From Acidimicrobiia bacterium (GTDB lineage Bacteria; Actinomycetota; Acidimicrobiia; Spongiisociales; JAHEDJ01), in NCBI GenBank assembly GCA_035471805.1, contig DATIPS010000023.1, positions 124,001-188,000 on the forward strand: a DNA stretch of 64,000 nt. Reading direction: 5' to 3'. The notes under the pieces were generated by a model, which saw nothing but the letters and a program-made list of their open reading frames with translations, was not told the DNA's origin and did no database searches. The translations under genes were made by a program, and so were the position numbers. Below are positions 35,759-38,028 of this stretch, one piece after another (position 1 is the first letter of the stretch; each line of letters begins with the position of its first letter).

Positions 35759-35761
35759 CGG

Positions 35762-35834
35762 CAGCCCCGACCAGATTCGAACTGGCGTTACCGGCTTGAG
35801 AGGCCGGCGTCCTAGGCCGCTAGACGACGGGGCC
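35762..35834 (-). tRNA. tRNA-Glu (anticodon CTC)
   Basis: A 73-nt cloverleaf: acceptor GGCCCCG/CGGGGCU, D arm starting GTCTAG, anticodon loop CTCTCAA with CTC, and T arm GCCAG-TTCGAAT-CTGGT, discriminator G. CCA is not encoded. It follows tRNA-Gln on the same strand with 23 nt between them. Confidence 0.95.
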
Positions 35835-35857
35835 GTTATTGCCCGTTACCGGGCTCG

Positions 35858-35929
35858 CTCGGGGGGAAGGACTCGAACCCTCAATGACAGGACCAGAACC
35901 TGCTGTGTTGCCAATTACACCACCCCCGA
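35858..35929 (-). tRNA. tRNA-Gln (anticodon CTG)
   Basis: A 72-nt cloverleaf: acceptor TCGGGGG/CCCCCGA, D arm with GGTGTAATTGGCAACAC, anticodon loop TTCTGGT carrying CTG, T arm GAGGG-TTCGAGT-CCTTC, discriminator G, no encoded CCA. It starts a two-tRNA transcript with tRNA-Glu(CTC). Confidence 0.95.
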
Positions 35930-35996: not shown

Positions 35997-36617
35997 TCAG
36001 GCGCCGGCCGCCAGTGCCACGAGTTCCTCGAACTGCTCAACGGTAATGCCGCTGGCGACCCGTTGAACGACCACGTTGTCGCTACCCACGACGACCCACG
36101 CAGGGACATTTGGCATTCCCAGCGCAGAATGAATCGAATCGGTCCGATCGTCCACGATCACCGGCGGTGTCCACCCTTCCCGCTCGAACCAGGCGCCGGG
36201 CGGATAGTTGACCCTGGAAGGCTCGACGAGGATCGACGTCGAGTAGAGGTCGACTTCTGTCGGCAGACCGTTTTCATCGAAGTACCGCTGCAAGTCCGAG
36301 ACCTCGGACTGGCAGACGGGTCACCAATGCGCCAGGTTGAGAATCAGCTTGGGTCTACCGTCGGCGGAGATCGCGATGGGATTGCCGTCGAAATCAGCAC
36401 CCTCGATCGTCGGAAGTGCGAGACCTATCGCAGCATCCGGAGCACCGGGAACGAACGCCGGCAACTCCTCGCCCCGCACCGTGACATCACCGTAGACCGA
36501 GGCCTCGTCCGTGCTCAGCATCGTGGCAACAACCGCGAGCAGAGCGAAAGCCCCAACCGCACCCAGGACCAGCGGCAGCATGCTCTGCTTGCGCTTGCGC
36601 GACTTGTACTTCGCCAT
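35997..36617 (-). CDS. Membrane-anchored thioredoxin/TlpA-like selenoprotein (UxxC)
   Basis: A 206-residue thioredoxin-fold protein read through an in-frame TGA (36321-36323) as selenocysteine at residue 99. Residues 13-34 form a membrane anchor. The redox motif is LNLAHW-U-PVCQSEVSDLQ; in TlpA/ResA-like proteins this position is the first Cys of CPxC. After it come RYFDENGLPTEVDL, a cis-Pro region MPNVPAWVVV and a typical C-terminal helix, all in frame and family-like. A GAGGAAC ribosome site precedes the ATG. A paralogue at 36674 has its TGA at the same place. Simple pseudogene status is unlikely because downstream coding is intact. It should act outside the membrane in thiol-disulfide exchange. 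Confidence 0.85.
36294..36323 (-). promoter_or_regulatory. Sec TGA codon and SECIS-like hairpin of the minus-strand selenoprotein gene
   Basis: The TGA (36321-36323) is followed after 17 nt by GGTCT in the apical loop of a hairpin GTCCG-AGGTCT-CGGAC (36294-36309). Bacterial SECIS elements lie directly 3' of the UGA with a G-rich apical loop recognised by SelB; the E. coli fdhF loop, as I recall it, also reads AGGUCU at nearly this spacing. Confidence 0.75.
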
Positions 36618-36673
36618 CAGTTCCTCGTTTCGCACAGTCACACGTACAATCTGCCCGCATACATTAGGGGAAC
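36618..36673. promoter_or_regulatory. Divergent promoter region between the two selenoprotein genes
   Basis: The 56-bp gap separates two divergent starts. A TACAAT box at 36645-36650 would suit a plus-strand -10 element, and an AGGGGAAC ribosome site precedes the ATG at 36674. The shared gap suggests coordinated expression. No operator is identified. Confidence 0.45.
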
Positions 36674-37342
36674 ATGACGGACCAGAACACCTCAAGAACT
36701 CGATCTCTGCTCATCTTCGGAGTTGCAGGCGCTCTAGTGCTGCTGCTCGGGGTAGCCGCCGTGCTGCTGACGGGCTCCGAAGACCCCGGGATCGTGTCCG
36801 ACGGCGGACCCGGAGAAGATGCCACCGCGGTGGCATCTATCAGTGAGACCCGCCCGGTGACGGTCGTCGGGAGTGGCCTTGTGCCGATGCCCGAGCAGGG
36901 CGCGGACACGGCCCTCGGCTTGCCGATGCCGGAGTTGACCGGTCAGTCGTTCGACGGAACACCGGTGGAGATCAAGAACGACGGCAGACCGAAGATCATC
37001 ATCTTCCTAACCCACTGGTGACCGCACTGCCGGTCCGAGGTCTCGGACTTGCAGAGTTACTGGTCCAGCAACGAACTGCCGACAGATATCGATATCGTCA
37101 GCGTCTCGGGCAGCAATAGGCCCACCGAAACCGGGTACCCACCCAGCGAATGGCTCGCCGATTGGCCGATTCCAGTGCTGGTCGACGATGAGAACGGAAC
37201 GGCGATGAAGAGTTACGGTCTCGTCTACTTCCCGTTCTCCGTCATCGTCGACGGATCCGGCAAGGTCGTTACCCGCCATGTCGGAGCGTTGACGGGTGCA
37301 GACCTCGAAAACGCATTCGGTTTCTTGCGAGGTGCGGGCTGA
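36674..37342 (+). CDS. Membrane-anchored thioredoxin/TlpA-like selenoprotein (UxxC)
   Basis: A 222-residue protein with TGA (37019-37021) read as selenocysteine at residue 116. Residues 12-33 are a membrane anchor, then an Asp/Glu/Gly-rich linker. The motif IIIFLTHW-U-PHCRSEVSDLQ places U exactly at the first Cys of CPxC. The rest of the thioredoxin fold follows in frame: YWSSNELPTDIDIVSVS, WPIPVLVDDENG, cis-Pro in LVYFPFSVIVDGSG, and a final helix. It is a diverged paralogue of the minus-strand protein (shared HWUPxCxSEVSDLQ core). Other genes here stop at TGA normally, so the code is not globally changed. It converges on dsbB. Confidence 0.85.
37019..37048 (+). promoter_or_regulatory. Sec TGA codon and SECIS-like hairpin of the plus-strand selenoprotein gene
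   Basis: The TGA at 37019-37021 is followed after 17 nt by GGTCT in the loop of GTCCG-AGGTCT-CGGAC (37033-37048). Sequence, loop and distance are identical to the hairpin in the paralogous minus-strand gene. Confidence 0.75.
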
Positions 37343-37369: not shown

Positions 37370-37966
37370 CTAATCGATACCGGGAACCGGCGAACCCGAT
37401 TCTTCTGCCGGCTCCCGCGCCTCCGTGCCCGCGACGTAGAGCAGCACGAAGATCAGCGCGAATCCGACCAGCGACATGAACGGGAACGAGATGAACCCGA
37501 ACTGCCAGATGTAGCGCTCGGTGCACGAAGCATCGACCCCGCAGAAACCCGACTCGAGGCCGGGCCTCAACTGCAGCACGTACTGATACAGGGCGATAAC
37601 CGCACCGACAACCACCAGGGGGTATGAGTAGCGGCGAACCCCAAGGTCCTTGCGATACGCGGCGATCGCCAGGATGATCGCCAGCGGATACATGGCGATC
37701 CGCTGATACCAGCACAAATCGCACGGGGCGAAGTCGGCCACCTCCGAGTAATAGAGGCTCCCAGCCATGGAAACCGCCGCGACGAACGAACCCAGCCACA
37801 GAGCGGCCGGCGACACGAGTTCAATGGCGGAGTCTCGGAAACGGGCCACAGCCGGCGACCAGCGCGCCGCAAGCATTACCACAAGCACACCTATCACACC
37901 GGCCATCGCGGCGAGCGTGAGAAGGGCGAAGAACTTGGAAACGGTTTCGATACTCATTCCGGTCAT
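37370..37966 (-). CDS. dsbB: Disulfide bond formation protein B (DsbB/BdbC-like)
   Basis: A 198-residue four-helix membrane oxidase. The first redox pair is CxxC in FAPCDLCWYQRIAMYPLAI, the hallmark of DsbB; the second pair is in SGFCGVDASCTERYI. TM segments at the start, around LWLGSFVAAVSMAGSLYY, after the CxxC, and near the C terminus fit the fold. It passes electrons from exported thiol oxidoreductases to the quinone pool. ATG at 37966 or 37957. Its neighbours are the two membrane-anchored UxxC thioredoxin-like genes, suggesting a shared periplasm-side pathway. Confidence 0.88.
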   Translation of the reverse strand: MTGMSIETVSKFFALLTLAAMAGVIGVLVVMLAARWSPAVARFRDSAIELVSPAALWLGSFVAAVSMAGSLYYSEVADFAPCDLCWYQRIAMYPLAIILAIAAYRKDLGVRRYSYPLVVVGAVIALYQYVLQLRPGLESGFCGVDASCTERYIWQFGFISFPFMSLVGFALIFVLLYVAGTEAREPAEESGSPVPGID

Positions 37967-38028
37967 TCTTCCACAGCCCCGGGCCCGGGATGACATCCGA
38001 CCTCTGCAGGTCAGTTAGCCTGAGATCG

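Follow-up and report, generated by a model that had tools for sequence, protein, structure and literature searches.

A divergent pair of TlpA-like selenoprotein genes beside a DsbB-family gene in an Acidimicrobiia bacterium

Two divergent genes in the window (the whole 64,000-nucleotide stretch of Acidimicrobiia bacterium DNA analysed here) each contained one internal TGA, located where a TlpA-like domain has its first redox residue, and both are almost certainly real selenoprotein genes. Their products probably work with the neighbouring DsbB as DsbA-like oxidants, judging from gene linkage and sequence motifs. The features of the pair, in window coordinates, were as follows.

36617..35997, minus strand: TlpA/redoxin-like selenoprotein gene (HW-U-PVC), 206 residues; TGA-bearing orthologues in genomes G001, G002 and G003
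36617, minus strand: start codon ATG of the minus gene
36323..36321, minus strand: in-frame TGA read as Sec, codon 99 (LNLAHW-U-PVCQSEVSDLQ); Cys in homologues
35999..35997, minus strand: stop codon TGA of the minus gene
36674..37342, plus strand: TlpA/redoxin-like selenoprotein gene (HW-U-PHC), 222 residues
36674, plus strand: start codon ATG of the plus gene
37019..37021, plus strand: in-frame TGA read as Sec, codon 116 (IFLTHW-U-PHCRSEVSDLQ); Cys in homologues
37340..37342, plus strand: stop codon TGA of the plus gene

Internal TGA codons and the selenocysteine machinery

The starts of the two genes were separated by 56 bases, with the full pair occupying 35997..37342 and the span from TGA to TGA occupying 36321..37021. 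The frames were paralogous (37% identity). Both also terminated in TGA, such that the same codon would have two readings per message, and translation with table 11 split each gene into two open frames, which is how standard-code annotation would break them and what the initial annotation had anticipated in the absence of recoding. Directly 3' of the minus gene, on the same strand, were genes for tRNA-Glu (ctc) and tRNA-Gln (ctg) (window 35760-35834 and 35857-35929); this Gln-Glu tRNA pair also adjoined the counterpart of the minus gene in G001, G002 and G003.

Homologues were sought in 99 genomes, including the window's own (G000), and matches were obtained in all 99. Thirty loci among the matches listed were read at the residue level, giving 41 motif rows, of which two (L052 minus 1365 and L056 minus 855) were out of frame and without homology and were excluded. 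Of the 39 remaining sites in these 30 loci, 11 had TGA and 28 had a codon for Cys in the equivalent motif position, which bears out the initial assignment of TGA to the first redox Cys of two divergent genes (HW-U-PVCQSE and HW-U-PHCRSE) and shows the Cys expected at the U position of homologues. The TGA sites were distributed as two each in G000, G001, G002 and G003 and one each in G060, G047 and G092, which belong to three other families. Of the four congeners, three carried both genes, in divergent orientation and with one TGA apiece; in the remaining one (G004), a 56% complete genome, all matches were weak. The plus orthologue in G003 ended in TAG and retained the internal TGA. Across 25 aligned members, the H, the W, the U/C site, the second C and a proline at the cis-Pro place were invariant (C116, C119 and P187 in plus-gene numbering, with TGA read as C), in agreement with the cis-Pro region described in the initial annotation; the cis state of P187 is inferred. 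Of three weak homologues listed with an inner TGA, two (L070 and L071) were Cys proteins in which TGA was the ordinary end, and the third (L072) was a further selenoprotein candidate; another (G060:C237) was listed with an inner TAG.

If the genes were pseudogenes or the product of sequencing errors, the internal TGA would truly terminate translation and the downstream halves would be remnants, which is compatible with the two open frames per gene obtained under table 11. However, four genomes had the TGA at an identical codon position in both paralogues, and three further families had it there in one gene; the hairpin described below was conserved, and the genome encodes the full Sec machinery. 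Omega was 0.07-0.20 in 23 of 24 within-genus comparisons, on both sides of the TGA (segments of about 80 codons 5' and all codons 3'), with the remaining comparison giving 0.41 at a dS of 0.13. We therefore consider this explanation very improbable, being ruled out by conservation in four congeneric genomes together with omega on either side of the TGA. The claim that the two TGAs were not chance errors was upheld by the paralogy, the congeners and these omega values, and the degraded downstream frame that would have spoken for decay was absent, since the frame after TGA was intact and evolved under purifying selection within the genus. A different genetic code, with TGA as a sense codon everywhere, was also rejected, as both genes terminate in TGA and one orthologue in TAG. 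A codon-usage scan of the window did not by itself single out the two TGAs, which ranked 4 and 9 among 281 candidates; the genes are distinguished by homology and the hairpin. A scan for promoters and terminators gave no signal exceeding that of shuffles.

The window's genome (2.85 Mb in 70 contigs, 97% complete) contained a complete Sec set, and each component that the initial annotation proposed to look for scored above its family cut-off.

C49:35102-36415: selA, 430.8 bits, above family cut-off; adjoins selB
C49:33309-35090: selB, 341 bits, above family cut-off
C31:62529-63458: selD, 401.4 bits, above family cut-off
C31:104049-104139: tRNA-Sec, 75.2 bits, above family cut-off; ARAGORN anticodon tca

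SelD of this genome (G000:C31:62529-63458) was itself a selenoprotein candidate, having a TGA within GSGUACKLG and a hairpin of its own after it, which supports the decoding of UGA as Sec in this genome. Within the order, selA scored above cut-off in 84 of the 99 sampled genomes, the window's genome counted, so that some genomes with Cys forms would also be able to make Sec. Six of the seven TGA-bearing genomes had selA above cut-off, and the seventh, G047, had a selA fragment at a contig end.

A common SECIS-like hairpin and the history of the Sec state

A SECIS-like hairpin common to both genes, which is new beyond the initial annotation, followed each internal TGA.

36293..36310, minus strand: SECIS-like hairpin AGTCCGA-GGTC-TCGGACT, loop 17 nt after TGA
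37032..37049, plus strand: SECIS-like hairpin GGTCCGA-GGTC-TCGGACT, loop 17 nt after TGA

As RNA, the two window copies have the form (A/G)GUCCGA-GGUC-UCGGACU, with a 7-bp stem and a GGUC loop 17 nt from UGA. The hairpin was nearly identical at all 11 TGA sites, every one of which forms 7 of 7 pairs; the maximum among the 28 Cys sites was 4. Rules for bSECIS elements given in the part of a prokaryotic selenoprotein catalogue used here call for a loop of 3-9 nt with G in the first two positions, an upper stem of 4-16 bp, a distance of 16-37 nt from UGA and an MFE of -7.5 or lower (PMC13188914), and the hairpin agreed with all of these in loop, stem, G, spacing and energy. The core of the minus-gene hairpin had an energy of -9.2 kcal/mol, and the 48-nt stretches had -22.3 and -22.4 kcal/mol. 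Relative to synonymous recodings, the 48-nt energies were clearly lower in some genes only (z -0.34 to -3.29), a weak contrast that arises because the amino acids of the hairpin itself (SEVSD) already favour a stem; 4.2% of synonymous codings of QSEVSDL retain all 7 pairs. Same-residue pairs had the same codon in 110 of 110 cases in codons +4 to +9 vs 140 of 226 elsewhere (a descriptive count over 7 representatives of the 11 TGA genes, since the pairs are not independent), and the two serines in the hairpin codons were fixed as TCC and TCG, respectively. Variation within the hairpin preserved pairing, with one pair altered on both sides; covariation was slight, its score being reached by 38 of 500 shuffles.

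In a set of 84,980 species genomes, the exact pattern of TGA plus hairpin was limited to five stretches (seven matches), which were contigs of G001, G003, G047, G060 and G092. G000 and G002 were absent from these matches; that set may lack the window's genome and others close to it. When 395 genomes of the class were searched with a covariance model of the hairpin, the 11 TGA sites scored 58-70 bits, while all other matches in that search, which used strict filters and scored 15 candidates per genome, were weak (≤27.7 bits). Stretches of 48 bases were inspected at 23 of these weaker loci (L102-L124), irrespective of strand or of the precise match position. In one of them (L116, position 1501; G171:C102:1624-1671), a TGA preceded bases that, by eye, read PFCRRHLSQLRDDFE, similar to a UxxC redoxin-type selenoprotein. 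The sequence and comparative evidence supports decoding of UGA by SelB and the hairpin, in which SelB would bring Sec-tRNA to UGA by way of a small GGUC-loop stem-loop situated 17 nt downstream within the coding sequence.

A tree built without the motif columns (U to +12) rejected a single Sec clade (AU p 1.4e-4) and contained five state changes, two of them forced by well supported branches; with the motif columns included there were four changes, three of which were forced. G018, a Cys genome, was the supported sister of the Sec genome G060 within the same genus and retained selA (407.8 bits). After its TGC codon (L037 near position 1815, G018:C101), the 5' part of the hairpin, GGTCCGAGGT, was retained and the 3' arm was lost, which looks like a recent change from Sec to Cys. 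Because the hairpin is nearly identical in all TGA genes, common descent of Sec is favoured, and the simplest account suggested by this unrooted tree is that Sec was inherited in common and then lost to Cys several times; motif transfer or conversion remains as an alternative. Accordingly, the description of the two TGAs as independent in the initial annotation is doubtful, since paralogues with a common hairpin probably inherited Sec rather than gaining it twice, and two independent gains are the less likely history. The Sec form was probably ancestral in part of the order and replaced by Cys in several lineages. A nearly frozen hairpin in two paralogues and four families, beside a Cys sister (G018) with half a hairpin, provides a natural Sec-to-Cys series.

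Protein family, the DsbB neighbour and possible function

Both proteins had a hydrophobic N-terminal stretch (Kyte-Doolittle mean over 19 residues: minus protein 2.53, plus protein 2.78), which probably serves as their only membrane anchor and leaves the redox domain outside. The best Pfam families were Redoxin/AhpC-TSA, with Redoxin PF08534 the top match at 39.9 bits (plus) and 25.8 bits (minus) relative to a gathering cut-off of 26.6. AlphaFold modelling of the plus gene product, with Cys in place of Sec, gave a confident thioredoxin-type domain (block means of 94-98 pLDDT over residues 61-220), and the first 50 solved structures matched to this model by Foldseek included Etrx2, ResA, StoA, TlpA, CcmG and M. 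tuberculosis DsbF. Structure matches included 1lu4 and 3ios (M. tuberculosis DsbE and DsbF), and the title of PDB entry 3c71 describes a ResA variant with a 'DsbA-like active site motif (CPHC)'. The thioredoxin fold and redox motif are assigned from the AlphaFold model and Foldseek for the plus gene and by alignment for the minus gene. None of the NCBIfam models for StoA, ResA, TlpA, DsbE and WAxxUGC_long was matched above its cut-off (best 56.9 vs 210), and neither protein matched the DsbA domains PF01323 and PF13462 at E 0.1; thus, they are not DsbA by family.

A further redox gene followed the pair at a distance of 27 bases from the plus gene.

37370..37996, minus strand: DsbB-family gene, PF02600 4.1e-13, convergent with the plus gene

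Its score with the NCBIfam disulfide oxidoreductase model (118.3) was just below the cut-off of 124. This was the sole PF02600 match in the window's genome, and one DsbB per genome was found in six of six genomes. In 14 of 17 contexts that we selected from the genomes of the searched relatives, matches to DsbB and to TlpA-like proteins were 6-298 bases apart, and the two genes were co-stranded in 12 of these 14, the exceptions being the plus gene in two congeners; within the genus, DsbB runs opposite to the plus gene. The three contexts without a match comprised short contigs of G002 and G060 (3.3 and 4.2 kb) and L081 of G018, where no DsbB was found within the 14 kb examined. Two genomes of one family (G007 and G014; L079 and L080), both with Cys genes, had the order TlpA-DsbB-TlpA.

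Taken together, the products would be thioredoxin-fold domains of the TlpA/ResA type held behind one hydrophobic N-terminal anchor, with the UPxC site presumably facing the outside of the membrane. Their task would most likely be thiol-disulfide exchange with envelope proteins, and the adjacent DsbB would re-oxidise them and pass the electrons to quinone. Proteins of TlpA fold would then take on a role like that of DsbA, Sec being the residue that attacks, as suggested by gene linkage and by the CPHC motif of relatives.

The principal alternative is that the selenoproteins are reductants or isomerases held reduced by a CcdA/DsbD-type protein, with roles like those of ResA/TlpA in cytochrome c or copper-site maturation or in the repair of wrong disulfides, and that DsbB is a chance or regulatory neighbour. 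The ResA, StoA, TlpA and DsbE families are known as reductants, Sec suits a nucleophilic reductant, and a selenenylsulfide (Se-S) is hard to reduce and hence a poor, weak oxidant. Consistent with this alternative, fold and family scores were closest to StoA/ResA/TlpA/DsbE, and the genome encodes a DsbD_TM protein of the CcdA/DsbD type (C4:73396-73995), which could reduce TlpA-like proteins. Other DsbA-like frames that DsbB could serve, the opposite orientation of DsbB and the plus gene in the genus and the G018 context lacking a DsbB match also count against an oxidant role. The DsbA-like frames were on C33 and at C23:66678-67193, and C33 carried a 489-residue open frame (L128, G000:C33:48595-49671) with two tandem Thioredoxin_4 (DsbA-like) matches; similar double matches occurred in G001, G002 and G003, and PF01323 was matched in 16 of 21 genomes. 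An absence of DsbA could therefore not be used here as an argument for pairing with DsbB. In opposition to the reductant role, DsbB was a conserved neighbour in the contexts above (which were searched for DsbB, not for CcdA). The motif form of ResA/TlpA is CxPC, which was found in none of the 28 Cys homologues, whereas most members had U/CPxC (CPxC in 16 of 28), and the DsbA-type CPHC was the commonest Cys motif (11 of 28). The DsbB linkage, the CPHC motif and the oxidising M. tuberculosis DsbE and DsbF, which supported oxidative folding of hirudin in vitro according to the part of PMC3853704 used here, lead us to favour the DsbB-coupled, DsbA-like role and to regard the reductant role as less likely.

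Membership of the redoxin superfamily also raises the question of peroxidase- or sulfoxide-repair-type selenoenzymes. Redoxin/AhpC-TSA were the best Pfam families, all 25 aligned members matched an MsrA/MsrB fusion model at E 0.01, and the window proteins matched the N-terminal part of that model. Their scores of 28.2 and 27.3 were nevertheless far from the NCBIfam cut-off of 522, and the site is UxxC, in contrast to the TxxU noted for peroxiredoxin in the catalogue (PMC13188914, in part), making a peroxidase or repair function improbable. Beyond the DsbB-coupled role for the pair itself, a broader and more tentative proposal is selenium-based oxidative folding in this actinobacterial order, in which DsbB would re-oxidise anchored TlpA-fold U/CPHC selenoproteins that do the extracellular work of DsbA, with Sec ancestral in the pair, one nearly frozen SECIS, repeated loss to Cys and decaying SECIS remnants.

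Relation to known systems

The strongly reducing pair of Sec gives no expected help to an oxidase, and a link between Sec and a DsbB gene outside the cytoplasm would allow the reason for using Sec to be tested directly. Relative to StoA/ResA/TlpA oxidoreductases, the window family shares the type of thioredoxin fold and gave its best sequence and fold matches there, but differs in having Sec or Cys, mostly as U/CPxC and never as CxPC, in the DsbB neighbour of the window genes and in scores below every NCBIfam cut-off. The E. coli type DsbA/DsbB system resembles it in the CPHC-type motif of relatives and in a DsbB partner (by linkage), although the window proteins lack PF01323 or PF13462 matches. 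M. tuberculosis DsbE (MPT53) and DsbF provide a TlpA-like fold in an actinobacterium with oxidising activity in vitro, but these are Cys enzymes with a DsbD-type protein or Rv2877c as the proposed partner, as opposed to DsbB by linkage here (PMC3853704, in part).

UxxC Trx-like and Prx-like selenoprotein families have been described (PMC2398784, in the part used), and the sections used of the 2026 prokaryotic catalogue include UxxC redoxin (PF08534), thiol:disulfide interchange, cd02966 thiol-disulfide isomerase-like and DsbA-like selenoproteins (PMC13188914). By description, its UxxC 'Redoxin family protein' (PF08534) and 'thiol-disulfide isomerase-like protein' (cd02966) are like the window proteins in domain family, UxxC motif and one Sec per protein. 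The Sec trait is also in print for other Actinobacteria (PMC5029168, in part). The statement that such proteins are rarely described therefore holds at most for their setting: UxxC redoxin/TlpA selenoproteins are already catalogued, and it is the pairing, common RNA signal, evolution and DsbB neighbour that are informative. Words starting with 'Actino', 'Acidimicrob' or 'DsbB' are absent from the main text of PMC13188914, and a divergent pair of this kind was not found in its Table 1 and sections 5 and 9. In open-licence literature, titles and the starts of abstracts yielded no bacterial DsbB-linked selenoprotein, titles among the matches listed yielded no actinobacterial TlpA-type selenoproteins, and records on Acidimicrobiia with selenocysteine were limited to sponge microbiome work. 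Elsewhere in the order, L072 (G036:C37:34800-37300) encoded FWAEW-U-PACRREL in a TlpA-like frame, with a hairpin unlike that of the window genes right after the TGA, and is a candidate for a second selenoprotein.
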